Of a DNA stretch of 64,000 bases, positions 44,865 to 64,000 are shown in pieces. Every line of letters starts with the position of its first letter. Within the stretch, counting starts at the first letter, position 1. The notes below the pieces were generated by a model that was not told the DNA's origin, did not search any database, and saw nothing but the letters and a program-made list of their open reading frames with translations. Source of the stretch: Brevibacillus massiliensis (GTDB lineage: Bacteria; Bacillota; Bacilli; Brevibacillales; Brevibacillaceae); NCBI RefSeq assembly GCF_000311785.1, contig NZ_HE978536.1:497417-561416 (forward strand). Reading direction: 5' to 3'. The position numbers and the translations under genes are program-made.

Positions 44865-45059
44865 TCATACGGACTTTTTTGCGTGAATGGTCGTATCTAC
44901 AGATTCTTGGCAGTGCTGTCGTTTCCCTGCTGGCTGCCTCTGGGCAGAGAATAAAGAATACCCGAAGCGAAGCTCCGGGCCTTTTTGCTTTTGGATCCCC
45001 CTGACCAACTGTTTTATTTCTTCATGAATCAAACGGATTTCAGCGCTTTTAGCGATCAT
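44865..45059 (-). CDS. Possible small translationally coupled gene after qhpE
   Basis: A 64-codon frame (MIAKSAEIRLIHEEIKQLVR start) whose ATG overlaps the qhpE stop as ATGA, like other junctions in this operon. Only the first 30 residues look protein-like; the rest is unusual and passes through the hairpin at 44961-44979. No family is recognised. It may be a chance frame. Confidence 0.25.
   Translation of the reverse strand: MIAKSAEIRLIHEEIKQLVRGIQKQKGPELRFGYSLFSAQRQPAGKRQHCQESVDTTIHAKKSV
44958..44983 (-). terminator. Probable terminator of the qhp operon
   Basis: On the minus strand CCCGGAGC, TTC loop and GCTTCGGG (one G-U pair) are followed by TATTCTTTATTC. The T run is imperfect, so efficiency is uncertain. 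Confidence 0.45.
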
Positions 45060-45796
45060 CCGCTTTCTACCGGGACAGGCCCGAACAGCCCGAGCAAACA
45101 GGCTTCCATCTGCTGCTTGGAGCCGACTCCAAACTTTTCTTTTAATTTGGCGAGCAACCCGGTAACATGGGCGGCCGCGAAGCTGTGTCCCTGAAAGTTG
45201 AACTTCTGCATCGGCCCTTCCAGCCGCCGGGGCAGCCCTGAAGCGAGAAAGGAAACCGGCTCGTCGGGATTGTAAAAAAACAGCTCACCCGTGCACTGCC
45301 GTGCGGCTTTGACGCCAAATGCCGAATCGTAGCAGCCGGGCCACAGCAGGCCGTTTTGTTCGTCACAGGCGGCCACAATGATCACTCCCGCCGCCGCAGC
45401 CTGAGCGCAGACCTGCTGAAATTCGCCGATATCCCGGCGAACGCCGAGACTCAGGTTGATGAAATCGATTTTTGCTTCGATGCACCACTCGATCGCGGCG
45501 CAGAGCACCTCGATGTGCGCAGTCAAGGTATCGTGAAAGATTTTGAGCGACCACAGTTCCGCTTCAGGCACCTGCTCATTGAGGACGCCGGCCACCGCAG
45601 TTCCATGTCCCAACTGATCGGTATGATCGCAGGTGAGCAGGATCCTCCCCCCGGCATCTACCTGGAAGGCAGCCCCTCCGGCAATTTTGCCGGTATGGGG
45701 ATGCCACTCATTGATGCCGCTGTCTATTTGGGCGATGCTGATTCCCTTTCCTTTGCCAAAGTCACGCTCAGCCATGTAATAGCGTGACAGAGCCAT
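45056..45796 (-). CDS. qhpE: Subtilisin-like leader peptidase of QHNDH gamma subunit (QhpE)
   Basis: This compact 246-aa S8 protease lacks a signal peptide and propeptide. The catalytic triad is in IAQIDSGIN (Asp25), QLGHGTAVAG (His64) and QGHSFAAAHVTG (Ser205). The usual oxyanion asparagine position (AAGNE in subtilisins) reads AACDE here, with Asp145. In Gram-negative bacteria QhpE is a cytoplasmic protease that removes the QhpC leader after radical-SAM crosslinking. The ATG follows GGAGGGG and overlaps qhpF by 29 bp. Its size, location and lack of secretion signal all fit that role. Confidence 0.88.
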   Translation of the reverse strand: MALSRYYMAERDFGKGKGISIAQIDSGINEWHPHTGKIAGGAAFQVDAGGRILLTCDHTDQLGHGTAVAGVLNEQVPEAELWSLKIFHDTLTAHIEVLCAAIEWCIEAKIDFINLSLGVRRDIGEFQQVCAQAAAAGVIIVAACDEQNGLLWPGCYDSAFGVKAARQCTGELFFYNPDEPVSFLASGLPRRLEGPMQKFNFQGHSFAAAHVTGLLAKLKEKFGVGSKQQMEACLLGLFGPVPVESG

Positions 45797-47453
45797 GCTG
45801 ATCCCCTCCTTGAGCTTGATCGTGCGGCCTGATTTTTCCCTCAGCCACGTGCAGCAAGCGATCCACCCACATGATGTTTTGCAGGCGATGAGTGATGATG
45901 ATAACCGTTTTGTGTTTTAACCGTTCCCTGATCTGAGCAAATAGTCGGCACTCCGATTCCGCGTCCAGATGGCATGTGGCCTCGTCGAGGATCAGCACAT
46001 CCGGGTCCCGCAGCAGCGCATGGGCGAGCAGCAGGCGCTGCTTTTGCCCGGCGGACAGCCGCACTCCCTTTTCTCCCACCTGTGTCTGCAGCCGCTGCGG
46101 CATTTGTTCGATATCCTGCCAGAGGCCGACATCTTCGAGCACGGCCTGCATCTGCCATTCGTCGATTTCCTGTCCGCCCAGTTTGAGGCATTCGGCGATT
46201 GAACCGTACCACACCGGATGGTCGTGGGCGACGAGGCACACCTTGCGGTTCCAGCAGTCCCGCTTGATGGCTTGGATATCGATCCCGTCTATTGTGATCA
46301 CGCCTGCGGTAGGTTGAGTGACTCTGGCGAGGAGATCGGCAAGCGTGCTTTTGCCTGCCCCGCTCTCGCCGGTTATGCCGATCATCTCGCCTTTGGCCAG
46401 GCAGAAATCGAGCTGCTGAAAAATCGGCTTCGTCGCCTCATGCCAAAACGAGACCTGCTCGAAGCGAATGAGCAAACCCGGCGACGACAGCTTCCTCGAC
46501 CCGTCGCGCTCCAGGGGAAGCCCGAGAAACTCTCTGACGCGCCGCACCGCCACTCTGCCTTTTTGCAGGCGGATGTACAGCTGCGCAAAGCCCTGGACAG
46601 AGGCGTACAAACTTGCTTGATAAGCGGTAAAGGCAAGCAGTGTCCCCAGGCTCATCCCTCCTCCGAGAACCTTGAACCCGAGTAGCCAGATGATGCCGAT
46701 GGTGGAAACGAGCACAACCACTTGCGGAACGCCCTGGGCACACGCTCCGATCAGAGTGACCTTCAAGCTCTGTTCATTCAGCTTTGTCAACTCATCCCTG
46801 TATCTGGCTTCCAGCCAGGGCTGCAGATTCGATGCGCGGATAAAGCGGACTGAGGCCAGCGTGTCGTAGAGAAAGCTCTGGTTGCCGGCGGCCAGCTCGC
46901 GCAGGGCCATGTTGCTGGCAAACAGGGTGTCGCGAAATTTTTGCGTTCCCCAGATCAAAAGCGGCAGCAGCAGAAAACAAACGAGCGTCATTTTCCAGTC
47001 CAGCAGCAGGAGAAAGCCGACATTCAGCAGAAACGCAAGGCTGATGCTGACACACTGCAGCAAGCTGTCCGTGTACAGGCGCTGGGTCTCGGCCAAATCC
47101 TCGTTGACGCGGGAAATCACATCCCCAACCCGCTTGCCTGCGTAAAAGGAGTACGGAAGCCGAAGCACATGCCGGTAAAAAGCGGTCCGCAAATCCAGCA
47201 TCATCCGCAAGCTCATTTTGACGTAGCAAAATTTGGTCAGCAGCGATATGCCCAAGGCGCAGGCCATCAGCAGGACAGCCAGGCCCATCGCCTGCGAAAA
47301 GGGAAACGTACGCCGCAGAAATACTTCATCGATCACAAACCTGCCGAACAGCGGCTGGACCGTCGCAAGCGCCAGCGAGCAGATGTTCAGCAGCAATACG
47401 AGCACAAGCGGACCCATGTACGGCCTCTGAAACGGCAGCAGCTTCTTTTCCAT
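45768..47453 (-). CDS. qhpF: ABC exporter of the QHNDH gamma subunit (QhpF)
   Basis: From the ATG at 47453 (MEKKLLPFQRPYMGP) the product is 561 aa: six transmembrane helices (residues about 15-290) fused to a nucleotide-binding domain. Walker A is GITGESGAGKST, Walker B is DVLILDEATCHLD and the H-loop is IIITHR. The signature motif is LSAGQ rather than LSGGQ. QhpF exports the crosslinked, leader-processed gamma subunit to the outside of the membrane in known systems. No C39 peptidase domain is present, consistent with the separate protease QhpE. It starts 5 bp after the UbiU-like gene. Confidence 0.88.
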   Translation of the reverse strand: MEKKLLPFQRPYMGPLVLVLLLNICSLALATVQPLFGRFVIDEVFLRRTFPFSQAMGLAVLLMACALGISLLTKFCYVKMSLRMMLDLRTAFYRHVLRLPYSFYAGKRVGDVISRVNEDLAETQRLYTDSLLQCVSISLAFLLNVGFLLLLDWKMTLVCFLLLPLLIWGTQKFRDTLFASNMALRELAAGNQSFLYDTLASVRFIRASNLQPWLEARYRDELTKLNEQSLKVTLIGACAQGVPQVVVLVSTIGIIWLLGFKVLGGGMSLGTLLAFTAYQASLYASVQGFAQLYIRLQKGRVAVRRVREFLGLPLERDGSRKLSSPGLLIRFEQVSFWHEATKPIFQQLDFCLAKGEMIGITGESGAGKSTLADLLARVTQPTAGVITIDGIDIQAIKRDCWNRKVCLVAHDHPVWYGSIAECLKLGGQEIDEWQMQAVLEDVGLWQDIEQMPQRLQTQVGEKGVRLSAGQKQRLLLAHALLRDPDVLILDEATCHLDAESECRLFAQIRERLKHKTVIIITHRLQNIMWVDRLLHVAEGKIRPHDQAQGGDQHGSVTLLHG

Positions 47454-47458
47454 CTGAC

Positions 47459-48454
47459 TCACCGGTAGTAGCACATGAGTCCGGCGTCGCAAAACTGCGG
47501 TTGATTTCTCAGCTTTTTGGCTGTCTTGATGACCGCAGCCTCGCTCGCCTCGGCTTTCACCTGGTCAACAACCGTCCGCACCAGTTGAAGGCTGGCCAGT
47601 TTCCGGTAGGGGGCGCCTTCCCGACCGACGATTTTCAGCGAATCCACCCCGAGCTGATACAGCTTGGGGATCGCACACAGCCCGCACGGACCGAGCGGCA
47701 GTCCGTCTTGGGCCACCTGACAGCCGCAGTCGTTGACAAACCAGACAAACTCGCGGTAATCCTGCACCTGCTGGGCCAACTTCGCCTGTTCCGCAGCACT
47801 CAGCCGCTGATCGCCGTCCGCCGGGAAATACTCGTAGTCCCACTGCGCCTGAGAGCAAAACGCTCCCGCCGAATGCGTCGTCAGGCAGAAGCTCTCCTCG
47901 TACACGCAGCCGTCGTTTAGGACGAACACCTCCAGTTCGATGCCGTCTCCCGCAGCCGCCCGCAAAGCCGGGATCTCGCTTGGCTGTACGCTGCGGGGCA
48001 GGACGATTCGTTCCGCCTGCAGCTGTTTGTACAGGGCAATGCTACCCGGATTGATCGGCGCGGCGACGCTGCTGACGTGAATCGTCGCCTGCGGACAGCG
48101 CTCCTTCATCGCCACCATCAAGCCGATATCGCTGACGATAAACGCGCCGACGCCAATCTCATCCGTACAATGCGAAATCAGCTCGAGGAGCATCGGATAC
48201 TGCCCTTCCACATAAGCGGGAGCATTCAAGGTCAGGAATACGGGTATGCCATAGCGGCCCGCCAAATCGACGGCGCGCTTCAGTTCCTTCAAAGAGGGCA
48301 GTCCGGCAAAAGGGTTTCTGCGGTTGATCCACACGCCCGGCGAGTACTTGTGAATCCATTCCATCGGCGTAATTCCGCAGTAAAGCTCTTCAGCGCCGTT
48401 CTCCGCCAGCATTTCCACTTCGTCTGCCGAACCCAAAGGAGCTAATATTTTCAT
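47459..48454 (-). CDS. Peptidase U32 family protein, UbiU-like
   Basis: From the ATG at 48454 (MKILAPLGSADEVEMLAENG) the product is 331 aa. It has the U32 TIM-barrel segments AEELYCGITPMEWIHKYSP and FIVSDIGLMVAMKERCPQ. Its cysteine cluster begins Cys183-x6-Cys190, the same spacing as UbiU's first pair, followed by Cys200, Cys243, Cys245, Cys257 and Cys260. UbiU binds [4Fe-4S] and with UbiV performs oxygen-independent hydroxylation; other U32 proteins (RlhA, TrhP) hydroxylate RNA. Being inside the qhp operon, next to a UbiV-like partner, it may hydroxylate the gamma-subunit tryptophan. It should be cytoplasmic. The protease label of the family is historical. Confidence 0.82.
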   Translation of the reverse strand: MKILAPLGSADEVEMLAENGAEELYCGITPMEWIHKYSPGVWINRRNPFAGLPSLKELKRAVDLAGRYGIPVFLTLNAPAYVEGQYPMLLELISHCTDEIGVGAFIVSDIGLMVAMKERCPQATIHVSSVAAPINPGSIALYKQLQAERIVLPRSVQPSEIPALRAAAGDGIELEVFVLNDGCVYEESFCLTTHSAGAFCSQAQWDYEYFPADGDQRLSAAEQAKLAQQVQDYREFVWFVNDCGCQVAQDGLPLGPCGLCAIPKLYQLGVDSLKIVGREGAPYRKLASLQLVRTVVDQVKAEASEAAVIKTAKKLRNQPQFCDAGLMCYYR

Positions 48455-48488
48455 CGCTGCATCGCACCTGCCTCCCCTGATCAAATCG

Positions 48489-49433
48489 TTACACCGGAAT
48501 CCTCGGGCTGTACACAACCCTTGGCCGCTCAACCGCCTGCACGCCGCGCAATCCGCTTCTGACCAACTCCCGCGTATGCGCGTAAAAAGCAGTCGTCCCT
48601 TTTTGCACGATCCGGGTTTGCATGTCGCTGTGCTGCCGGTTTTTCAGCTCGTACACGTAGCGCTGGCACTCCTGTTTGCACTTCGGATCGCCGCGGAACT
48701 TACCCGCTTTCGCCGTTTCCATAAACCCGACCATGCAGGCGCTCCCGCTGGCCACGCAGCCGAAGGGAAAGTGGAAGGAGGTTAGCAGCGGCGCTTCCCA
48801 CTCTTTCATGGAAGGCACCTCGTTGCCCTGGATCAATTCGTCAAAATCGAGTCCGACCACGTTCCCCCGCTGCAAAAACGTTTGAAACCACGCGGACAAA
48901 AGGCCGGTTCGCTGGAAAAACTTCCGCCCTTCCTCCGGGGCCTTGTCGTTAGCGTAGTAGTGGGCGACGCGCGGGTCGCGGATCGTCTTGTTCAACAGCC
49001 TGCCGATTACGACATCGAGGCGGGGCAAGTGCGTCTGGATGTGATGGTAGACGCCCCAATCGTTGACGACCACCTCCACCCGCTCTCCCGTACTCGCGGC
49101 CGCCCCGTCCAAGTATGCCAAGATACTGACGAGCTGGGTAAATTTTTCACGGTGCGCATACGGAGTGGCAAAGGTGAAGGCGAATCCGCTCTCCCGGCAG
49201 TACGCCAGCGCCTTTTTCACCAGAGAAAGCGGAGGCAGCCGGTACTGGCAAAATTCGGAACCGAAGTAAATCCTCTCGGGCCTCTTCGGCTTGGCAAATG
49301 CCGCTGCCCATTCCTGAAAAAAGACTTCCTGCAATTCCGCTTCCATCGGGTTCTGCCGCGAAAACGGCAGCCACGGCTCTTCCGCCAGGCAAAGGTCGCG
49401 AAACGACTGAACGGAAACGGCAAACTCGACCAT
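48489..49433 (-). CDS. Peptidase U32 family protein, UbiV-like
   Basis: The 314-aa protein begins MVEFAVSVQSFRDLCLAEEP. It has the UbiV-type motif RIYFGSEFCQYR with Cys62, then HFPFGCVASGSACMVGFME with Cys226 and Cys233, and a Cys252-x3-Cys256 pair. E. coli UbiV uses one early cysteine plus three later ones ending in Cys-x3-Cys for its [4Fe-4S] cluster, so Cys62, Cys226 or Cys233, Cys252 and Cys256 are likely ligands. It lies 34 bp upstream of the UbiU-like gene and 27 bp downstream of qhpB. UbiU and UbiV act as a heterodimer, which suggests the same here. Target inferred from context: QhpC tryptophan. Confidence 0.8.
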   Translation of the reverse strand: MVEFAVSVQSFRDLCLAEEPWLPFSRQNPMEAELQEVFFQEWAAAFAKPKRPERIYFGSEFCQYRLPPLSLVKKALAYCRESGFAFTFATPYAHREKFTQLVSILAYLDGAAASTGERVEVVVNDWGVYHHIQTHLPRLDVVIGRLLNKTIRDPRVAHYYANDKAPEEGRKFFQRTGLLSAWFQTFLQRGNVVGLDFDELIQGNEVPSMKEWEAPLLTSFHFPFGCVASGSACMVGFMETAKAGKFRGDPKCKQECQRYVYELKNRQHSDMQTRIVQKGTTAFYAHTRELVRSGLRGVQAVERPRVVYSPRIPV

Positions 49434-49460: not shown

Positions 49461-50549
49461 CTACTGCTGCTTATCAATCTTGACGACCTGCAAGTCCCAC
49501 CCGTCTGTAGGCAGCGTGATGATTTTCTCTACCTGCAGCTCGGTGTTTGCGACGATGAATTCATTTCCTCCGCCAGCCAGGTACAATTTTGTTTCATCGG
49601 CGCTCAAGTCGATGGCATAGGTGCTCCCGTGCGGCGGATGCGAATCCTTCAGCACCTTGCCCGTCTTCATGTCTACCTTGTACAAGTGGTTGAGCACGAC
49701 ATAGCCGTACTGCTGGTTCCGGTCTACTGCGGCGGAAAACATCCCGACCGGATCTTTGTCGAACTCCAGCGTCTTCAGCTCTTCCGTTTTTAAATTGAAC
49801 CAGAGCAGCCCTTCCGTCACCCGGCCGTCCGGATACGACTTGACGAGTGGAAACGAATTGAACCCGGTGTGACTGCGGGGCCAAATCAGGAGGTAGTTTC
49901 CGATGCCATCCTCGGGTTTTTGCGGATGCTTGATTCCATGCAGCAGGGACAGTTTCATCTCTTTTACATCCAGCGTGTACAGATCATAGCCCCAGACAAA
50001 TACCGTGTTCGAATCGTCCGGCTTCCACTGCAGCACGTGGATCCCGTACGGGGCTTCGACGCTTCTGACGACTTCTTTCGTGCCGAGATCAATCTCGAGG
50101 ATTTTGCTCGGCAGTACCTTGAAGATGTTCGTTCGCTTTTCCCCCTGGGTGACAAAGGCGTACGCTTTGCTGCCGTCCGGTGAAATGGCGCTGCCCCAGA
50201 CGCGGCGGTCAAGCAAGCCGTTGTCCGTCCTGCCGGTCAGCTTGATCTCATCGATCACCTTGTTTCCCAGCGTGTCGATGACGTACAGCGAGGTTCTGCC
50301 GTTGGCAAGTGCCAACGCCTTCTTTCCGTCCTTGGTAAAGCTCAGATCGCGAACCGGCCCGTTGACTTTGATACTGGCAACCACTTCCGGCTTGGCCGGA
50401 TCGACGACCGTTACCTCACCGTAGCCAGACACGAAGACTCTCTCCATATATCCCGAATTGGCTCCACTGACCGGATGTCCCTCCCCGAAGCTTAAGAAAA
50501 AGCAGATGGCGACGATGAGATACGTTCCTATCAACGCTTTTTTGATCAT
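49461..50549 (-). CDS. qhpB: Quinohemoprotein amine dehydrogenase beta subunit
   Basis: The ATG at 50549 overlaps the qhpD stop as TGATG, giving 362 aa. An N-terminal hydrophobic stretch (ALIGTYLIVAICFFLSFGEG) is a signal peptide or anchor. The rest is a seven-bladed beta-propeller of WD/YVTN type, with repeats such as VFVSGYGEVTVVDPAKPEVV and TLGNKVIDEIKL. In QHNDH the beta propeller packs against the gamma subunit and helps form the amine-binding site. It lies between the radical-SAM gene and the UbiV-like gene. Confidence 0.88.
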   Translation of the reverse strand: MIKKALIGTYLIVAICFFLSFGEGHPVSGANSGYMERVFVSGYGEVTVVDPAKPEVVASIKVNGPVRDLSFTKDGKKALALANGRTSLYVIDTLGNKVIDEIKLTGRTDNGLLDRRVWGSAISPDGSKAYAFVTQGEKRTNIFKVLPSKILEIDLGTKEVVRSVEAPYGIHVLQWKPDDSNTVFVWGYDLYTLDVKEMKLSLLHGIKHPQKPEDGIGNYLLIWPRSHTGFNSFPLVKSYPDGRVTEGLLWFNLKTEELKTLEFDKDPVGMFSAAVDRNQQYGYVVLNHLYKVDMKTGKVLKDSHPPHGSTYAIDLSADETKLYLAGGGNEFIVANTELQVEKIITLPTDGWDLQVVKIDKQQ

Positions 50550-52012
50550 CAGTTGCTCATACACCCCTCTTTGCCGATGCCGCTGATCCGGTCGAGAAAC
50601 GCCGGGTTTTTTTCGAGAATTTTAACGTATGTCTGCAGACCGAGCGTGATCCAATCATGCATCCAGCTGCAGTAGTGGGCATTGGGGCGGCGGTAATCGC
50701 CCTGCCTTTCCATCGCTTCGTAGTAGCAGCCGCCTGAGCAAATATGCTTGAGCGCACAGAATGTACACGATTCCTTCCGGTCGACGTGCAGCTCAGCCAG
50801 CACTTCCTGCTGTCTGCGGCGATGTAAGCCAAAGTAAATATCACCTAGTTTAAACTGTTCATTTTCGTTAAAACGGTGGCAGAGGTACAACCCGCCATCC
50901 GGACTGACCGCAAAAAAACCCAGACCGGCGCCGCAGCCATACGCTTTATTCGTTCCTGTATGCAGTTCCTTCAGCAGATTGGTCAGATTGGAAAAGCCCA
51001 GATACTCATTGTTTACAGCCGCTTCGACATACAGCTCGGCCAGCTGGCGAAACTGCCGCAGCAGCTCGGCCAAATCGTCGTCGCCCAGGGCAAGCTCCAT
51101 GTTCGATTCGGTGACGGGCGCGAAGCCCACCTCGTAAAACCCTTTGGCGAGCAGATGCTCAAGCGACGTCTCCAGCTTTTCAAACCCTTTGGCCACGGTC
51201 ACCCGCGTGCCGATGGGCGCCGTTGTATGCGTTTCGAGCAGCTTGGCGACGTTTTGGCTGGTGCGGTCGTACGAGCCCTGCCCGCCTGCCATCGGCCGGT
51301 TCCTGTCATGCGCTGCCTTGGTGCCGTCCATGCTCACGGAGGTGCCGATTTTGTACTTGTGCAGAAAGACCATCTGCTCTTCCGTCATCAGCGTTCCGTT
51401 GGTGGTGAGGGAAAACGTGACCGTTTTTCCCCACCTCTTCGCCTCTTCCACAGCGTGCTCGACGATGTGCTTCAGCACTTTCCAGTTGAGAAACGGTTCG
51501 CCGCCAAACAGCACGATCGTCACCGACTTTTCGTCGAAGCTGTTTTCCAGCAAAAAGCGAATCGCCCGCTCGGCGGTTTCGATCGACATGTACTTCTGCG
51601 GCGCACCGTACTCTCCATCCCCGGCATAGCAATACGTACACCGCAGGTTGCAGGCATTGGCCAAATGAAACACCAGCGTTTTGACCGGCAGCCCCTCCGT
51701 GCTTGCCGGCACCGGCGGAGTAGCGGTAAAACGCTTCAGCTCCGTCTCTGCCAGGTCCAGAATTTCCAGTCGGGACAACTCCGCCAACATCTGCCTGTGC
51801 CGAGGGGCTGCATCTGCTCCTACTTGAGCGAGGTACTCATCGACGTCCAGCTCCACAGTATCTCCGCTTCTCGTGCCGTTCTGTTCGGCATACCGGACAA
51901 ATTCCCTGGAAAGGTGATCCAGCTGGACGATATTTCCGCTCAAACCGTGAAACAAATACTCACTGCCGCTTACTTCAAATGGAATGTAGTTTCGCAGCTG
52001 CGCAGTTCCCAA
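50549..52012 (-). CDS. qhpD: Radical SAM/SPASM thioether-forming maturase QhpD
   Basis: The 487-aa protein starts at TTG, ten bases after AAGGGAG. An N-terminal peptide-recognition-like region is followed by the radical SAM motif HLANACNLRCTYCYAGDGEY (Cys121, Cys125, Cys128), LFGGEPFLNW, and a SPASM domain with YGCGAGLGFFAVSPDGGLYL, SCTFCALKHICSGGCYYEA and a late HYCSW cysteine. QhpD builds three Cys-to-Asp/Glu thioether bonds within QhpC using auxiliary iron-sulfur clusters. All cluster cysteines appear present. It lies between qhpA and qhpB. Confidence 0.92.
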   Translation of the reverse strand: MGTAQLRNYIPFEVSGSEYLFHGLSGNIVQLDHLSREFVRYAEQNGTRSGDTVELDVDEYLAQVGADAAPRHRQMLAELSRLEILDLAETELKRFTATPPVPASTEGLPVKTLVFHLANACNLRCTYCYAGDGEYGAPQKYMSIETAERAIRFLLENSFDEKSVTIVLFGGEPFLNWKVLKHIVEHAVEEAKRWGKTVTFSLTTNGTLMTEEQMVFLHKYKIGTSVSMDGTKAAHDRNRPMAGGQGSYDRTSQNVAKLLETHTTAPIGTRVTVAKGFEKLETSLEHLLAKGFYEVGFAPVTESNMELALGDDDLAELLRQFRQLAELYVEAAVNNEYLGFSNLTNLLKELHTGTNKAYGCGAGLGFFAVSPDGGLYLCHRFNENEQFKLGDIYFGLHRRRQQEVLAELHVDRKESCTFCALKHICSGGCYYEAMERQGDYRRPNAHYCSWMHDWITLGLQTYVKILEKNPAFLDRISGIGKEGCMSN

Positions 52013-52030: not shown

Positions 52031-53659
52031 CTAGTGAACGATGTTGTTGTAGTCCGGAACGGTGGACACAAGATGGGCTTGAGCAGAAAACACCTTGCCG
52101 TCAACTGCCGCTTTGGCTACGACTGTTGCGCTTCCGACGTTTTCCTGGGTGTATTCCCTTGCCGGATTGATCCCTTCCGCCTTGGGCGTGTACAGGCCGT
52201 CTTGCTCAAGCGTCCCCAAATACTGCAGGTATTGGCTGTTTGCTCCTTCGGGATAGGCGGCCAATGACCACTCGGCGTCGACAGCGTCCAAGGTCAGGTC
52301 GTCGTCAGTGCCCTGCTTGCCGTCTTTTCCCTTGCTCATCCCGTAGGCGACAAACTGGGTGCTGACTTTATTCATCGGGCCTTCGCCGCCCATTCGCGCT
52401 ACCCCGTACGCCGGGGCAATCTTGATATAGTCGACTTTGTCGTACACGACGAGTTCCTTGTGAACGACCGCTCGATCGGTCCCGATGGCAAACGAACCGA
52501 TGTCGGCGCTGTCCGCCGCTGTCAAGCGAAGCTGCGCCTGTTCGTCAGCGACCACGTCGATCTCCTCTGCCGTTACGCCTGTGGGCAGATGCAAATCGGA
52601 CGCCTTCAGCTTGCCGAGGTTCATCCCGTAGAGAGTGACCTGGTTCGTCGCTCCTTTTTTCAATGCCCTTGGTTCAAAATGGATAATTTCCGGCTTTTCC
52701 GTTTGCAGCTTGTAATACGTTTCTTCCCCGGCAAGGCCCGAATCGCTCTTCTCTGACCAGTCGCCTTCAATCACATTCCCCTGCCCTTGCACATTGTAGG
52801 TTCCCTTCAACTCTCTTCCTGCCGCCTTGTAGTCCGCGCGTACCATAAATCCGCCGTAGAGCTTAATCTCGCCCTCCAGCTGAACGGACGCCTTGCTTTT
52901 CAGAAACTGAATCTGCTTCTGTTCCTTGTAACCGCTTTCCGTTTTCTTGAACTGGCTCTCTCCCAGGTAGAATCCTTTTGTTCCCTGAAATCCGGCTACT
53001 TTCCATTTCCCTTGCAGATCGTTCTCGCGGCCTTTCCACTTGTCCCACTCCGGCGTCTGGAGCGGATACATTTGCGCCAGATACTCCAGTGCGGCTTCCG
53101 CTTCAGCCGGCCAGTCCATATGGCGGTGGTTCAGATAGATCGAGGGAAACATCACCAGGTGGAAGTCCTTCAGGTTTTTCCATTCCTCTTCCGAGCGGCG
53201 CTGCGCTTCAAACCGCCCGGCTGCGTGGCACGTAATGCAGCTGCTCTGCACGTTCGGATTTTGCGGCAACGGCTCGGCATAGGAAGGTTTGTCTGCCAGC
53301 CAATACTGCACCTTCTCCGCTTCTTCCGGAGCCAAGCCGCGCTCCCGGCTCAAGTCGGCCACCAATTGCTCGCGTTCCGCTGCCGACAATTGAACGCCGT
53401 GAATGCGTTCCATTCGGGCAATCGTCTGTGACCAGCCTTCAGGGCTTTTTCGCACGTATTCGATGCGGGCCAGTTTGCCGTTCTGGTCGACAGCGTGACA
53501 GCTCATACACGATTTTTCCACCTGCTTGCTGACATGCACAACCTCTTTTGGCGGATCATCATGCCGGTCGCTCGTCTCCTGCGAGCCAGACAATTGCGAG
53601 ATGATGATCGCAACTACGACGACTGCGCACAGCACGGCCAAGATTCTCGTTTTTGTCAT
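52031..53659 (-). CDS. qhpA: Quinohemoprotein amine dehydrogenase alpha subunit (diheme)
   Basis: The 542-aa protein has an N-terminal membrane segment (residues about 5-22, RILAVLCAVVVVAIIISQL) with no obvious cleavage site, so it may remain anchored. Two c-type heme sites follow: CMSCH at 51-55 and CITCH at 141-145. The C-terminal two thirds form the beta-barrel and Ig-like domains of the family (FQGTKGFYLGESQFKKTESG and IHFEPRALKKGATNQVTLYG). The hemes carry electrons from CTQ to an external acceptor. The ATG follows GAGGAG. It starts 14 bp after qhpC. Confidence 0.93.
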   Translation of the reverse strand: MTKTRILAVLCAVVVVAIIISQLSGSQETSDRHDDPPKEVVHVSKQVEKSCMSCHAVDQNGKLARIEYVRKSPEGWSQTIARMERIHGVQLSAAEREQLVADLSRERGLAPEEAEKVQYWLADKPSYAEPLPQNPNVQSSCITCHAAGRFEAQRRSEEEWKNLKDFHLVMFPSIYLNHRHMDWPAEAEAALEYLAQMYPLQTPEWDKWKGRENDLQGKWKVAGFQGTKGFYLGESQFKKTESGYKEQKQIQFLKSKASVQLEGEIKLYGGFMVRADYKAAGRELKGTYNVQGQGNVIEGDWSEKSDSGLAGEETYYKLQTEKPEIIHFEPRALKKGATNQVTLYGMNLGKLKASDLHLPTGVTAEEIDVVADEQAQLRLTAADSADIGSFAIGTDRAVVHKELVVYDKVDYIKIAPAYGVARMGGEGPMNKVSTQFVAYGMSKGKDGKQGTDDDLTLDAVDAEWSLAAYPEGANSQYLQYLGTLEQDGLYTPKAEGINPAREYTQENVGSATVVAKAAVDGKVFSAQAHLVSTVPDYNNIVH

Positions 53660-53672
53660 CGCGGCACTCCTC

Positions 53673-53993
53673 TTACGGCTTCACGTATTTTAATTTGCGC
53701 CAATCATTGGCTGCCACCGGGCATTCATCCGCCCAGCTTCCGTAGTTCGTCAGCCCGTCAGGCACCTGGGCCGCCCACCAACAGTCGCCGTAACAGCCGT
53801 AGATGTCGCGGTAATGCGGCTGGCATAAGCCGTCGAGCCCCATGGCGGAAAAGTCCGTCTCCCATCCGGGATCAAACAGATTGGCACATCCCATCGGCAG
53901 CAGTGAAAGGCCCTCCACCTCCGGCGGTTTTTCCGTGTTGACAACCCGTTCGATCATTTTCCCTTTCCAATTTAATGAATGGACATGCTTCAT
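53673..53993 (-). CDS. qhpC: Quinohemoprotein amine dehydrogenase gamma subunit precursor (CTQ-bearing)
   Basis: The 106-aa precursor has no signal peptide. Its first 30 or so residues (MKHVHSLNWKGKMIERVV...) are a leader. The core keeps the spacing of Pseudomonas gamma: Cys36/Glu45, Cys57/Asp63 and Cys71/Asp79 for the three thioether bonds, and Cys67/Trp73 for the cysteine tryptophylquinone. The segment DIYGCYGDCWWAAQVPD holds the CTQ pair. Cys91 is extra. QhpD crosslinks the peptide, QhpE cuts the leader and QhpF exports it. It is the first gene of the operon, with AAAGGGG upstream. Confidence 0.95.
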   Translation of the reverse strand: MKHVHSLNWKGKMIERVVNTEKPPEVEGLSLLPMGCANLFDPGWETDFSAMGLDGLCQPHYRDIYGCYGDCWWAAQVPDGLTNYGSWADECPVAANDWRKLKYVKP

Positions 53994-54026
53994 AGCCCAA
54001 CCCCTTTCTTTCTTTGTACATCTGGC

Positions 54027-54056
54027 CTATAATCAATCGTAAGATTATTCAGTCAA
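54027..54056 (-). promoter_or_regulatory. Candidate promoter of the qhp operon
   Basis: On the minus strand TTGACT (54051-54056) is 18 bp from TTATAG (54027-54032), 34 bp upstream of qhpC. Confidence 0.5.
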
Positions 54057-54101
54057 ATCAACGTCAAACCCTGATCAAGTTTCGCTGATTTTTTTGTCAA
54101 T
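54052..54101. promoter_or_regulatory. GTCAAA direct repeats, possible response-regulator sites
   Basis: GTCAAA occurs at 54052-54057 and 54063-54068, an exact 11-bp period, with GATCAA at 54073 and GTCAAT at 54096, three periods further. OmpR-family regulators often bind such phased direct repeats. The first overlaps the proposed qhp -35 box. Confidence 0.4.
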
Positions 54102-54178
54102 TTTCAGACATATGATGACACCTTCGTATCCCCGGCGGCAGACCGGCGAGGGGAACAACAAGACTGGAGGGATCTGAT

Positions 54179-54880
54179 GTGGATGAAATCCTGATCGTAG
54201 AAGACGACAAAGACATACAAAAGCTCCTGTCGCTCTGTTTTGAACAGGAAGCCCTCCCCTATTCCGTAGCCTCTACCGGCAAAGAAGCGATTGAACAGGT
54301 GAAAAAAAGGGCGCCTTCGTTGATCCTGCTCGACATGATGCTGCCCGATATCGACGGCATTTTGGTCTGTCAACAGCTGCGCATGCTGACCACGTCTCCG
54401 ATCCTTTTTGTCACCTGCAAAAACGGAGACAACGACAAGATTCTCGGCCTCAGTATCGGGGCAGACGACTATATCGAAAAGCCGTTTAACATCAGCGTGC
54501 TGCTGGCTCGTGTCCGGGCCCACCTGCGACGAAACCGGATGCTGAAAAAACAGCAGGCCAAACAAGACCAAAGCATTCACTTTGACCACATGATCATTAA
54601 CGCCAGCGCCCGTGAAGTCTTGCGTGACGGAAAAAAGATCCACCTGACCGCCAAAGAATTCGATCTTTTGCACTTTTTGACGCAGCACCCCAACCAGGTG
54701 TTCTCGCCTGAACAACTGCTGGACAAAATCTGGGGCATCGATTCATTCGGCGAAAAAAGAACCGTGATCGTGCACATGTCGAGCTTGCGCAAGAAAATTG
54801 AGGAAGATCCGTTGAATCCCCGTTACATTGTGACTGTGAGAGGGGTTGGATACAAATTTGTGGAGGCTGCAAACCATTAA
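54179..54880 (+). CDS. OmpR/PhoB-family response regulator
   Basis: The 233-aa protein starts at GTG (MDEILIVEDDKDIQKLLSLC) seven bases after GGAGGG. The receiver domain has acidic residues 8-10, the phosphoacceptor Asp52 in LILLDMMLPDIDG and the conserved YIEKPFN lysine. The C-terminal winged helix contains LTAKEFDLLHFLTQHPNQVF and the KRTVIVHMSSLRKKIEEDP recognition helix region. It is divergent from qhpC and overlaps the kinase gene. In other bacteria QHNDH is controlled by AraC-type QhpR; here this regulator is the likely substitute, by inference. Confidence 0.92.
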   Translation: MDEILIVEDDKDIQKLLSLCFEQEALPYSVASTGKEAIEQVKKRAPSLILLDMMLPDIDGILVCQQLRMLTTSPILFVTCKNGDNDKILGLSIGADDYIEKPFNISVLLARVRAHLRRNRMLKKQQAKQDQSIHFDHMIINASAREVLRDGKKIHLTAKEFDLLHFLTQHPNQVFSPEQLLDKIWGIDSFGEKRTVIVHMSSLRKKIEEDPLNPRYIVTVRGVGYKFVEAANH

Positions 54881-57035
54881 GACATCGTTTTTTCGCAAAA
54901 TTCTCTCTTTTACCGCCCTGCTATCGTCTGTCCCATTCATTGTCCTCGGTGTTTACAGTCTGTTTCAGGTCAATGACTTGTCGGCCAGAATGACGGAAAA
55001 TCAAATCAAAACCACGATGGATGACGCCTTGGAGCAAAAGTTCGCCCTGCTGGAAAAAGAGGCGGAGCTGATCAACATGGAATTTCTCAAAGTGGAGGAG
55101 AACTTGAAACTGCTGCAAAAGCAGGCCGAATACTTGTTTGCCAAAAGCGGCAAGCATCCCGATGCGCTTCCCGACATTCAGCTGATGCAGCGTCCCCAGG
55201 GGTACCGCTGGGAACCGTTCGCCAATCCGTACGAGCAAGCCAATATTTTCGTCAGTGCCAGCGCTTCGCCCAAGCTGACGACGGGCGAGCTCGGCACTGC
55301 CAAAGAACTTGAGCCCTTGATGATGCAGACGAACCGGAACAACTCCATGCTCAAGGCGGTGTTTTTTTGCTTTGCCGAATCCGGCTGGATCATCTACCCG
55401 GCGATGAATGTCGACTACGAGGTTGCCATCAACAAACTGCCGCCCGATATTAAGGTCCAGGATTACGAATTCTACTATCTGGCGGATGAGCGGCATAACC
55501 CGCAGAAAACGATTACATGGACCAATCCGTACAACGACGTCACCCACTGGGAAACGGTGACGACCGCATTGATTCCCGTTTACCTCCCGTCGGGCAAACT
55601 GCGCGGTGTGCTGGGGGCCGATTTTCCCGTCGCCTACATAGACGACCGGATCCTCCACTTAAAATTTAAGGAGCCCCACGCGTTTGCCTTCATTCGGGAC
55701 AAGCAGGGGCATTTCATCGCCGGGCAGAAGAACAGCCTGCCGTCCGCGCTTTTTTCACAGGGGTCGCTCGCATCGTTTCCACCGTCAGCCAGCGATGACA
55801 GCAGCACCGCGAGAAGCGAAAACGCGGCCAAAGGCATTCGGAAAATGTCCACTCCGGAGGGAAATTTTTATGTCATGTTTGCGCCGATTTCGAGCAACGG
55901 CTGGGTGCTTCACTTCGTCATCCCCGAGTCGGATATCATCGATCCGGTTATCAAAAATGCCAATGAGCAAACGGCCATTCAGATGGAGGCGTTTGCCCGG
56001 CGTCTGTTATTCTTTCTGTTCTTAGGCTCGGTGACCGTCATCCTCTTCTCCTACCATTTCTCCCGGACTGTGACGGAGCCGGTCAAGCAATTGACGAAAG
56101 CGACCCAGGAAATCGCCAAAGGCCATTACAGGATCGCCATTCCTGTCACCGTACATGACGAAATCGGCCATCTGACGGAAACCTTTAACTCGATGAATGT
56201 GACGATTGACAAGCTGATCCGCGAATTGACCGAGCGGGCCAACGAATTGGAGGAACGGGTGGATGAACGCACCAGAGCGCTGCAGGAAGCAAACGCCCAG
56301 CTGACAGAGACCTTTGACCGTCTGAAAAAATCGGAACTGGCCCGAACCGAGTTAATCGTCCAAATCTCACACGATTTAAAGACGCCGCTCACGTCCATCA
56401 AGGGCTACGCCCAGCTGATCAGCGAGTACAGCTTTTCGCCCGAGCAGCAAAAGGAGTACATGCAGCTGATTCTGTTCCGGATCAACCACATGATCCAGCT
56501 GATTGAAGATTTGTTCGAGATTTCCCGCCTGGATGTCAACGAAACGTACGACAAGGAGTGTCTGCCGATTGGCTTTATCCTCGAACACGCTCTGGAGATT
56601 GTCACCGGCAAGGCGGAGAGCACAAGCATTCAGATCCAATGCGACTGCCCCGACGATCTGCCGCTCGTCCATGTCGACCCGAAAAAGCTGAATCGCGCGC
56701 TGGTCAACATTTTGCAGAATGCGATCAAATACTCCCGCGATAAAGGGGAGACGATCCTTCAGATCAACGCTTTTCAGCAGGATGCCCGCTTGCTGATCGC
56801 GATCACAGACAACGGCGCGGGCATCGCTGCGGAAAATCTCGAAAAAATTTTCACGCCCTTTTACCGCGAGCCGCAGCACCACGGCGTGCAGATAGCGGGA
56901 AGCGGCTTGGGGTTGACGATTGCCAAAAAGATTATCGAGGGCCATCAGGGAGACATCTCCATCCGCAGCAGCGTCGGGGTGGGGACGACAGTGACGATCG
57001 CCCTGCCTGTGTCGGAGCAGGAGTGGGCCATTTGA
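54846..57035 (+). CDS. Membrane sensor histidine kinase with extracytoplasmic Cache-like domain
   Basis: The frame opens at TTG 54846, but GGAGG at 54862-54866 points to a start at ATT 54876 (overlapping the regulator's stop), so the N-terminus is uncertain. TM1 is near residues 20-40, a 340-residue extracytoplasmic dCACHE-like domain follows, TM2 is near 385-403, then HAMP (404-456), a coiled coil, HisKA with ISHDLKTPLTSIKGYAQ (His509) and HATPase with NILQNAIKYS, DNGAGI and GSGLGLTIAKKII. Cache domains bind small amines, amino acids or carboxylates. It is the natural partner of the upstream regulator and may sense amines. Confidence 0.9.
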   Translation: MDTNLWRLQTIKTSFFRKILSFTALLSSVPFIVLGVYSLFQVNDLSARMTENQIKTTMDDALEQKFALLEKEAELINMEFLKVEENLKLLQKQAEYLFAKSGKHPDALPDIQLMQRPQGYRWEPFANPYEQANIFVSASASPKLTTGELGTAKELEPLMMQTNRNNSMLKAVFFCFAESGWIIYPAMNVDYEVAINKLPPDIKVQDYEFYYLADERHNPQKTITWTNPYNDVTHWETVTTALIPVYLPSGKLRGVLGADFPVAYIDDRILHLKFKEPHAFAFIRDKQGHFIAGQKNSLPSALFSQGSLASFPPSASDDSSTARSENAAKGIRKMSTPEGNFYVMFAPISSNGWVLHFVIPESDIIDPVIKNANEQTAIQMEAFARRLLFFLFLGSVTVILFSYHFSRTVTEPVKQLTKATQEIAKGHYRIAIPVTVHDEIGHLTETFNSMNVTIDKLIRELTERANELEERVDERTRALQEANAQLTETFDRLKKSELARTELIVQISHDLKTPLTSIKGYAQLISEYSFSPEQQKEYMQLILFRINHMIQLIEDLFEISRLDVNETYDKECLPIGFILEHALEIVTGKAESTSIQIQCDCPDDLPLVHVDPKKLNRALVNILQNAIKYSRDKGETILQINAFQQDARLLIAITDNGAGIAAENLEKIFTPFYREPQHHGVQIAGSGLGLTIAKKIIEGHQGDISIRSSVGVGTTVTIALPVSEQEWAI

Positions 57036-61733: not shown

Positions 61734-63008
61734 TTACTTCACATTGTCTATCAGGAACGTTGCCAGTCCCGGCGCAATCGATAACAGTACGATAAACAGG
61801 AGCATGATTACGACGTAAGGCAGGGATCCTTTGACAATGGTCGAAATCGACGAGCTCGGATCCACACCCTTGAGAACAAACAAATTGAGTCCGACCGGTG
61901 GAGTGATCAAGGCCAATTCCATATTTACGACCATGACGATCGCAAACCAGATCGGATCGAACCCAAGCGCAGTGATGATCGGATACAGGATCGGCAGGGT
62001 AATGACCAGGATCGAGACTGTTTCCAGGAAGCAGCCCAAAATGAGCAGCACGATGTTGATCAGCACAAAGATAACCCACTTGGAAACCGGCAAAGCCGTC
62101 GCCAGCTCCGTCAATTTTTGCGGTATTTGCAGATAGGTCAGAATAAACCCGAACAGCATGGCACCGACAATAATGAACAAGATCATCGCATTCGTCTTCA
62201 CCGTGGAAAGAATAATCTTTTTCATATTTTCCAGCGACAAACTGCGATACACCAAGCCTGCGATCAAAAAGCTGACCACAACACCGACGGCAGCCGCTTC
62301 CGTAGGAGTGAAGATACCTGAATAAATACCGCCGATGATAATGACGGGCATCAGCAATCCCCAGATTGCCTTGCGGGTGGCCTGGAAGCGTTCAGTCCAG
62401 GTCGCCGGCGCCTCTTTGATATGCCTCGTCTTCCACGACGCGTACACCATAAACAGCAGAAGCAGCAGCAGCCCGGGGATGACACCGGCGATAAACAGCT
62501 TGCCGACCGACTCGCCGGTGACCGATCCGTAAATGATCATCGGCACGCTTGGCGGAATCAGGATGCCAAGCGTGCCGCCCGCTGCCATCAAGCCGAGTAC
62601 GCTTTTTTTATCGTAGCCCCGCGCGGTCATTTCCGGAATCGCGACCATTCCGATCGTGACAGCCGTCGCTACACTTGAACCGGAGATCGCGGAAAAAATC
62701 GCACAGCACGTCAGCGTCGCGATCGCCAAACCGCCGGGCAGATGGCGAAACCACTTGCTGGCCATCTCGTACAGTTCTTTGCCCACGCCGCTGTACAGGA
62801 GAACCTGGCTCATCAGCACGTACATCGGCAATGCGCTCATGGTAAAATCGTCCAGGGATTTGTACGCAATAATCGGGATTTGCGACAAGCCCAGCGCCCC
62901 GCCGTTGAACAGATACAGCCCGATGGCGGCGACAAAACTGAGCGCGAATGCCACAGGGAGCCCAATCAACAGCAAGACGGCAAAACCGCCTGAAAAAAAT
63001 GAAATCAT
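61734..63008 (-). CDS. dctM: TRAP transporter large permease subunit DctM
   Basis: The 424-aa protein has about twelve hydrophobic segments and DctM motifs such as FTMSALPMYVLMSQVLLYSG, AISGSSVATAVTIGMVAIPE and GTLGILIPPSVPMIIYGSVT. It carries solute across the membrane with sodium, fed by the DctP binding protein. Its ATG overlaps the dctQ stop by 4 bp. Substrate is not predictable; carboxylates are common. Confidence 0.94.
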   Translation of the reverse strand: MISFFSGGFAVLLLIGLPVAFALSFVAAIGLYLFNGGALGLSQIPIIAYKSLDDFTMSALPMYVLMSQVLLYSGVGKELYEMASKWFRHLPGGLAIATLTCCAIFSAISGSSVATAVTIGMVAIPEMTARGYDKKSVLGLMAAGGTLGILIPPSVPMIIYGSVTGESVGKLFIAGVIPGLLLLLLFMVYASWKTRHIKEAPATWTERFQATRKAIWGLLMPVIIIGGIYSGIFTPTEAAAVGVVVSFLIAGLVYRSLSLENMKKIILSTVKTNAMILFIIVGAMLFGFILTYLQIPQKLTELATALPVSKWVIFVLINIVLLILGCFLETVSILVITLPILYPIITALGFDPIWFAIVMVVNMELALITPPVGLNLFVLKGVDPSSSISTIVKGSLPYVVIMLLFIVLLSIAPGLATFLIDNVK

Positions 63009-63511
63009 TCTGACTCCTCTCCTTTTCCGTTCATCGTGTCAACAAATTGGAGCAGAAAGGAGAAGCAAAGCAAAATTCCGCCCAACGGGAGGAGCATTTC
63101 AGGAATGTACATTGGGATCCTCAGCAGGGAGGCAGATGTAAAACCCAATTCCTTGCTGCTGCTGACGTGTTCCCACCCGTATACAGTAAAGACTGTGCTG
63201 AACAAAAACCCGATTACGCAGGAAACCATCAGCATGCCTTTCCGAATAGGAGCGAAAACATTGTGGAGCAACAGGTCCACTTTGATATGCCCGTTCCGCC
63301 TAAGTGTGTATGCCGCTCCAAAGAAACAGCTTCCGATTATGGCGTAAATCGAGAGTTCCGTCGACCATATCGTCGGAGCGTTAAACAGGAAGCGGGAAAT
63401 GACCTCGTAAAAAATCATTCCCGTCGCGCAAAAGATAAAGATACCAGCCATAAGTCCGCCCAGCGTGATTAAGCGGTCAAGACCTGCGTATACCGACTTT
63501 AAAATCTTCAT
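63005..63511 (-). CDS. dctQ: TRAP transporter small permease subunit DctQ
   Basis: The 168-aa protein has four transmembrane segments and the DctQ-type region WSTELSIYAIIGSCFFGAAY followed by TLRRNGHIKVDLL. It associates with DctM in the membrane complex. The ATG follows GGAGGGGG and lies about 23 bp after dctP. Confidence 0.93.
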   Translation of the reverse strand: MKILKSVYAGLDRLITLGGLMAGIFIFCATGMIFYEVISRFLFNAPTIWSTELSIYAIIGSCFFGAAYTLRRNGHIKVDLLLHNVFAPIRKGMLMVSCVIGFLFSTVFTVYGWEHVSSSKELGFTSASLLRIPMYIPEMLLPLGGILLCFSFLLQFVDTMNGKGEESE

Positions 63512-63534
63512 GATCCCCCTCCCAAGGTGTTACG

Positions 63535-64000
63535 TTACTGTAAGTTCTCTACCAGCTGGATCAATTCTTTACCGGTATCTCCGCTGTTTTTCAGATATTC
63601 GTCAACAGCAGGTTTTGCGGCTTCTTTCCACGCCGGATAATCGCTTTCGGGCACGACGTAAACTTCCATTCCCTTTTCTCTCAACTGCTCTGCCGTCTTC
63701 TTATCCTCCTGCTCCGCCTGCTGGCGAATCCAATCTTCCGTCTCTTTGGCGGTCGCGGTGAGCAGCTCTTGTGTTTTTGGCGGCAGCCCGTCCCAGAACT
63801 TCTTGTTTACCGCGAGCAAAAATTCCAGGTATGCGTAGTTGGCAATCGTCAAATACTTGGATACTTCGTCGTACTTGCGCTGTACCATCGCGGTCGTTCC
63901 GGAGGTAGCGCCGTCAATCGTATTGCGCTGGAGCGCCATGTAAACCTCGCCCGCTCCCATAAAGACCGGTGCCGCCCCGTATGCTTGCAGCATGGCAGAG
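63535..64000 (-). CDS. dctP: TRAP transporter solute-binding protein DctP (5' end beyond window)
   Basis: Only the C-terminal 154 or so residues are present. They include APVFMGAGEVYMALQRNTID, DEVSKYLTIANYAYLEFLLA and a charged C-terminal helix, matching the DctP family. The real start and signal peptide lie past position 64000. The periplasmic-type binding protein, lipid-anchored in Gram-positives, delivers substrate to DctQM. Confidence 0.92.
   Translation of the reverse strand, partial: SAMLQAYGAAPVFMGAGEVYMALQRNTIDGATSGTTAMVQRKYDEVSKYLTIANYAYLEFLLAVNKKFWDGLPPKTQELLTATAKETEDWIRQQAEQEDKKTAEQLREKGMEVYVVPESDYPAWKEAAKPAVDEYLKNSGDTGKELIQLVENLQ

Follow-up and report, generated by a model that had tools for sequence, protein, structure and literature searches.

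How is the operon for quinohemoprotein amine dehydrogenase (qhp) regulated in Brevibacillus massiliensis? The question is raised by a stretch of 64,000 nt from this organism (assembly GCF_000311785.1, contig NZ_HE978536.1, positions 497,417–561,416 of the forward strand), called the window below; unprefixed coordinates refer to it. An initial annotation proposed that a Cache-domain kinase and an OmpR-type regulator, encoded divergently from qhpC, replace the known regulator QhpR, act through repeats in the intervening DNA and possibly sense amines. Our analysis favours, with a probability of about 0.72, the reading that this gene pair is the local regulator of qhp, with an amine-sensing kinase and with activation through phased repeats.

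The gene pair and the repeats in front of qhpC

The first gene of the pair (54179–54880, plus strand, GTG start) encodes a response regulator of the OmpR/PhoB type, with matches to Response_reg (94.2 bits) and Trans_reg_C (103.7 bits) far above the Pfam cut-offs. Its best NCBIfam relatives are MtrA, YycF and PhoB, all below cut-off, and the receiver residues D9, D52 and K101 are kept in 14 of 14 aligned regulators. The second gene (54846–57035, plus strand) encodes a sensor histidine kinase of 729 amino acids in its longest open reading frame (ORF), in which Pfam identifies dCache_1 (45.4 bits, cut-off 45), HAMP, HisKA and HATPase_c. Hydropathy peaks at residues 18–42 and 382–406 flank the dCache domain and are followed by HAMP, HisKA and HATPase; the phospho-acceptor H509 lies within HDLKTP. 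On the opposite strand, qhpC (53673–53993, minus) encodes the gamma subunit (NCBIfam QH_gamma 142.6 bits, cut-off 50) and heads the proposed target operon. The divergent arrangement across 185 bp (53994–54178) that had been described is confirmed by Pfam, NCBIfam and the gene coordinates. The kinase ORF, with a TTG start whose exact position is uncertain, overlaps the end of the regulator by 35 nt (54846–54880). Overlap of the two ORFs in relatives suggests translational coupling.

Two GTCAAA copies on the plus strand (54052–54057 and 54063–54068) are spaced by 11 bp, as noted in the initial annotation. GTCAAA-N5-GTCAAA occurs once in the 64 kb and in none of 100 shuffles. Read on the qhpC strand, the copies belong to three 11-bp direct-repeat units (AACTTGATCAG, GGTTTGACGTT and GATTTGACTGA; 54049–54081, minus), the proposed binding site of the regulator from the sequence pattern and matrix scans. 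The units read TTGAT-TTGAC-TTGAC, with starts at 54078, 54067 and 54056, and an additional TTGAC (54096–54100, minus) stands in phase 22 bp upstream of them, which extends the repeats beyond those first seen. This TTGAT/TTGAC triple is unique in the 5.06-Mb genome (0 for the reversed control); the pattern was derived from the window site itself and only its uniqueness is informative. A candidate qhp promoter, also announced initially, was found on the minus strand (54029–54056) with a −35 box TTGACT (54056–54051), a 16-bp spacer and a −10 box GATTAT (54034–54029), scoring 9/12 matches; its −35 hexamer is the last repeat unit. As evidence the sigma-70 promoter scan was rejected, with one site found versus 0.8 expected from shuffles.

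The repeats recur in front of other qhp operons that carry the pair. Period-11 direct repeats were tested in the DNA 20–150 nt upstream of qhpC and gave mid-p values of 0.005 for the window, 0.003 (locus L028), 0.045 (L029), 0.063 (L030), <0.001 (L031), 0.014 (L032), 0.023 (L033), 0.002 (L034), 0.002 (L035), 0.030 (L036) and 0.025 (L019). The combined Stouffer z is 7.24 for nine nonredundant pair-bearing loci and 6.77 for the eight without the window; the highest values for the other periods from 7 to 16 are 1.89 and 2.02, respectively. Direct repeats at about one-turn spacing, as expected of OmpR/PhoB-type targets, were thus found at period 11 only, the binding itself being a prediction. Calibration on 492 window tiles returned p < 0.05 in 3.3% and p < 0.01 in 1.2%. 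When the unit width was set slightly differently, in an earlier version of the test, the values for single loci were weaker (e.g. 0.116 for L029 and 0.146 for L030). Two unit types are seen: the clade of the window has TTGAT/TTGAC, and TTTAC occurs in the other clade as well as at the copper amine oxidase loci described below. Leave-one-out matrices, built with the tested locus excluded, gave the site the top rank in all 10 loci; the window site scored 23.7 versus 13.1 for the best unrelated position in 64 kb. The unit register was picked by eye from earlier output, and leave-one-out is independent of the tested locus and not of that choice. The scans left out the near-duplicates L019, L033 and L036, and L032 was not among the scanned loci. 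In eight loci (seven of the scanned ones and L019; gene starts taken as mechanical ORF starts), the distance from the array start to qhpC is 88–105 nt, whereas that to the regulator start ranges over 41–313 nt. The near-fixed distance to qhpC argues that the array is tied to the qhp promoter.

The geometry resembles that of the PHO box, for which 11-bp direct repeats are described (PMC9019756). The regulator belongs to the same family as PhoB/PhoP and the direct-repeat layout is the same, but the sensor, the repeat sequence (TTGAY or TTTAC) and the target differ. From this geometry we infer that the regulator acts as an activator at a PHO-box-like array.

Distribution of the pair and its relatives

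QhpC was searched for in 99 relatives (3 hits), 39 family genomes (2), 398 class genomes (6) and 398 phylum genomes (3); these sets overlap and each count includes the genome of the window. An additional genome set yielded 23 loci, 14 of them from Bacillota. After removal of same-contig loci, 17 distinct Bacillota loci were retained. Eleven of these (the window, L019 and L028–L036) carry the regulator and kinase genes in divergent orientation to qhpC, and their kinases include members only 24–30% identical to that of the window. No comparable pair adjoins qhpC in the nine non-Bacillota loci, one of which (L042) is a short contig; L040 and L041 have only a distant kinase further on.

The six Bacillota loci without the pair (L018 and L023–L027, Bacillus badius and relatives) each encode an upstream protein of about 620 amino acids. 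Pfam identified those of L023 and L027, the two tested, as sigma-54 activators with GAF, AAA and Fis-type helix–turn–helix (HTH) domains, and the ORFs of the remaining four look similar. A −24/−12 element, TGGCA-N6-TTGCA, is present in 6/6 pair-less loci versus 0/11 pair-bearing ones; it stands upstream of qhpC or of ADH-ALDH-qhpC. The period-11 test on the six sigma-54-type promoter regions gave z 0.78, with L027 alone at p 0.025. A tree of QhpD places the sigma-54 loci as sister group of the window (97/97), inside the clade of pair-bearing loci, so that the regulator was probably swapped. The sigma-54 activator, like the pair, would be a local regulator of orthologous qhp operons, but it is of the GAF/AAA/Fis type and is associated with a −24/−12 promoter. 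An inverted repeat, AAACAAACTGTTCAA ... TTGAACAGTTTGTTTA, also precedes qhp in these six loci. Linkage, conservation of the site and the mutually exclusive sigma-54 arrangement together make control of qhp by the pair a well-supported prediction.

QhpR is a regulator of the AraC type, and the QhpR of the Paracoccus locus L081 is so annotated. Its absence from the window, stated in the initial annotation, is borne out: HTH_18 has nine matches genome-wide and none on the contig of the window, and the Paracoccus QhpR as query gave only two weak local HTH matches in the whole genome. With the query from L081, no orthologue was found in the other fetched qhp loci either. The claim that the pair replaces QhpR holds in a functional sense, no orthologue having been found; the pair is not the sole Bacillota solution, as six loci are predicted to use the sigma-54 activator. 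QhpR resembles the pair as a local regulator of the same operon and differs from it as a one-component AraC protein without a kinase. Amine-induced qhp expression is reported for the QhpR system (PMC7876137). In the titles and abstract beginnings of the open-licence literature, no description of control of qhp or copper amine oxidase by such a pair was found.

Relatives of the pair also stand beside other genes. A sensor-profile search of the 398 class genomes gave seven strong matches (428–480 bits; next 149 bits), of which four neighbour qhp, two neighbour aldehyde dehydrogenase and copper amine oxidase, and one neighbours neither. In the two copper-oxidase cases (genomes G177 and G072; L057 8424–15209 and L058 8608–15267), a homologous pair lies divergent to genes for aldehyde dehydrogenase and copper amine oxidase, both enzymes being confirmed by Pfam, and similar 11-bp repeats are present (p 0.045 and 0.004). 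The kinase tree places L031, which is linked to qhp, together with the two kinases found next to copper amine oxidase (99/98); the partner enzymes have thus changed and the sensor has stayed. A family-level search with L057 and L058 fragments (4 and 1 genomes; queries largely kinase core) added no further copper-oxidase-linked pairs. More distant dCache proteins score 115–149 bits (G127, G087, G073 and G373). The seventh match, in genome G197 (L056, 7153–11436), belongs to a close homologous pair, with a GH88-like gene and a TRAP transporter encoded divergently from it; the QhpC search of the class genomes found no QhpC in G197. As this homologue shows, an amine enzyme is not an obligatory partner of the family. 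By analogy, the TRAP transporter of the window (61734–63993) was considered as a regulon member and rejected: the DctM proteins are just 35% identical and the repeat triple is unique.

The sensor domain, its signal and the alternatives

The extracytoplasmic sensor domain covers approximately residues 43–381 (54972–55988, plus), as assigned from Pfam dCache_1, a structural model and fold comparison. Structure prediction of the sensor, suggested in the initial annotation, gave a dCache domain (AlphaFold2 model of residues 36–400, mean pLDDT 83.5), but the fold alone cannot tell amine from amino-acid sensors. VIA-align of the model with dCache structures returned Z 17–20 for amino-acid and amine receptors alike. 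The pocket was compared at the residue level, with the amine-motif residues and their roles in PctD and other receptors taken from PMC10104139. In the sequence alignment, F209, Y210, Y229 and D259 correspond to W128, Y129, Y144 and D173 of PctA. Via PctA and 7k5n, F209-Y210, V238, T240 and D259 correspond to F188-Y189, M215, S217 and D235 of PctD. The numbering was fixed by the spacing of 29 residues from tyrosine to aspartate, and not by structure superposition. The aromatic pair is kept in 14 of 14 kinases, as is a hydrophobic residue (V or M) at position 238. Position 240 is T in 11 and S in two of the 13 kinases linked to amine enzymes, and all 13 keep Y229, T233, T/S240 and D259. The fourteenth, that of L056, has F, S, A and H at these four positions, so that D259 is found in 13/14; the pocket change is one natural variant and suggestive only. 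R126 of PctA, the carboxylate-binding arginine of amino-acid sensors, aligns with Y207 in the window, and the position is not conserved elsewhere.

The sensor shares with the dCache_1AM amine sensors (PctD, McpX and Methanosarcina mmHK1S) the fold (Z 17–18), the aromatic pair, the hydrophobic position and the aspartate; at the position of the motif serine, its family has S in a few members and T in most. A related arrangement is described for Methanosarcina mazei, in which R1, an amine-sensing dCache kinase, is encoded beside dimethylamine methyltransferase (PMC10104139). There too a dCache kinase is encoded beside an amine-using enzyme, although the organism is archaeal and the enzyme and output are different. 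The occurrence of related pairs beside copper amine oxidase points to the substrate, an amine, as the shared signal. Two unrelated amine-oxidising partner enzymes and the pocket residues make an amine the likely signal, and the amine-sensing role put forward at the outset gains support from both.

In the proposed mechanism, the dCache kinase would bind a small amine outside the cell, autophosphorylate at H509 and pass the phosphate to D52 of the regulator, as the conserved residues suggest. The phosphorylated regulator would bind the 11-bp phased TTGAY repeats, one per helical turn, up to the −35 box. Once bound, it would recruit RNA polymerase, as happens at a PHO box, and turn on qhpC-A-D-B-orf7-U32-F-E. 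The pair would thereby fill the role of the AraC-type QhpR in Paracoccus, and related pairs appear to run the aldehyde dehydrogenase/copper amine oxidase operon.

Several observations weigh against this reading. The fold comparison does not separate ligand classes (PctA Z 18.9, PctD 17.7 and TlpQ 17.3). Of the amine motif, W155 (the cation–π aromatic) and the R103-D133 pair above the pocket lie outside the coverage of the profile alignment and are unplaced. Single-locus repeat values are modest for L029 (0.045) and L030 (0.063), and independence among the loci is incomplete. The G197 pair (kinase 50%, regulator 66% identical) keeps the repeats while adjoining the TRAP transporter and GH88-like gene. 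The −35/−10 call alone is weak, no better than chance. The first, second and fourth of these bear on an alternative to which we give a minor but real share of belief: the pair acts on qhp via the repeats, but it responds to something other than an amine, which may be the aldehyde product, some amino acid, or an envelope or redox state linked to extracytoplasmic oxidation. The fold is equally near to amino-acid receptors, the amine motif could be traced only in part and the G197 homologue indicates that the family can serve other genes; moreover, the two amine-oxidising enzymes share a product type too, and linkage alone cannot separate substrate from product. However, the arginine with which amino-acid sensors bind the carboxylate is at a position that is not conserved here, and the conserved aspartate and aromatics are those common to amine receptors.

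The position of the array bears on two further readings. Repression of qhp by a regulator that covers the −35 box until the signal releases it would fit the identity of the last repeat with the −35 hexamer, but the array extends upstream and not across the −10 box, and PHO-box-type repeats at such a position usually mean activation; we regard repression as unlikely. Less probable again is that the repeats act in control of the pair itself or of a distant regulon, with qhp a chance neighbour. The repeats do sit in a shared gap, and divergent regulators are often autoregulated. Against this stand the nearly fixed distance to qhpC beside a several-fold variation in the distance to the regulator, a linkage kept in 11 of 17 loci and the single occurrence of the triple in the genome.

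If activation of qhp by an amine-sensing pair is correct, a regulator would be identified for the qhp operons of Gram-positive bacteria, and the induction of amine dehydrogenase in Bacillota could be tested directly, the DNA site and the pocket residues being specified. A collection of candidate amine-sensor kinases would also be at hand, among which the homologue with the naturally altered pocket can serve as control, and the locus would be a clear example of how one conserved enzyme has had its regulator replaced. In broader terms, we lean slightly towards an undescribed Bacillota family of amine-responsive two-component systems that would govern amine-oxidising enzymes which are unrelated yet equivalent in their chemistry, namely quinohemoprotein amine dehydrogenase and copper amine oxidase, via co-evolving 11-bp arrays. 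Such systems would have been swapped with AraC-type and sigma-54 regulators around qhp by lineage, and one branch would have lost the amine pocket and been re-used beside a transporter.

The qhp operon and the absence of QhpG

The Gram-positive qhp operon lies on the minus strand in the order qhpC-A-D-B-orf7-U32-F-E. Downstream of qhpC are qhpA for the diheme alpha subunit (52031–53659; Pfam/NCBIfam), a qhpD-like radical SAM maturase gene (50549–52012; 428.3 bits, slightly below the NCBIfam cut-off of 453) and a qhpB-like beta subunit gene (49461–50564; 118.7 bits, NCBIfam cut-off of 223.2 not reached). They are followed by orf7 (48489–49433; no Pfam or NCBIfam match), whose product has a predicted U32-like fold, and by a gene for a UbiU/TrhP-like U32-family protein (47459–48532; best NCBIfam relatives UbiU and TrhP, both below cut-off). 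A qhpF-like ABC transporter gene (45768–47492; Pfam) and a qhpE-like subtilisin-type protease gene (45056–45796; 154.9 bits, cut-off 165) complete the operon. The QhpD-like and QhpB-like proteins fall under the NCBIfam cut-offs despite the clear operon; automatic annotation may therefore miss Bacillota qhp operons.

In Paracoccus and Pseudomonas, hydroxylation of the cofactor tryptophan with O2 is the task of the flavoprotein QhpG (PMC7876137). Among the fetched qhp loci no QhpG match was found except in Paracoccus, and the genome of the window has only two short local matches. Instead of QhpG, a U32-family protein and orf7 are encoded in the window (47459–49433) and in L023–L031, L033–L041 and L043–L045. 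U32 oxidases are reported to carry out O2-independent hydroxylation (PMC11574389). A UbiU/UbiV-like pair may thus replace QhpG and make the tryptophylquinone without O2, a point that may matter as much as the regulator. The orf7 sequence-profile search of solved structures gave no significant match, and comparison of its profile with that of the U32 protein gave a merely suggestive probability of 67%. The orf7 model (pLDDT 83.7) has the U32 protein Mk0906 as its best fold match (Z 13.3, next 11.2). Four cysteines of orf7, C62, C233, C252 and C256, are invariant in 18 aligned sequences.

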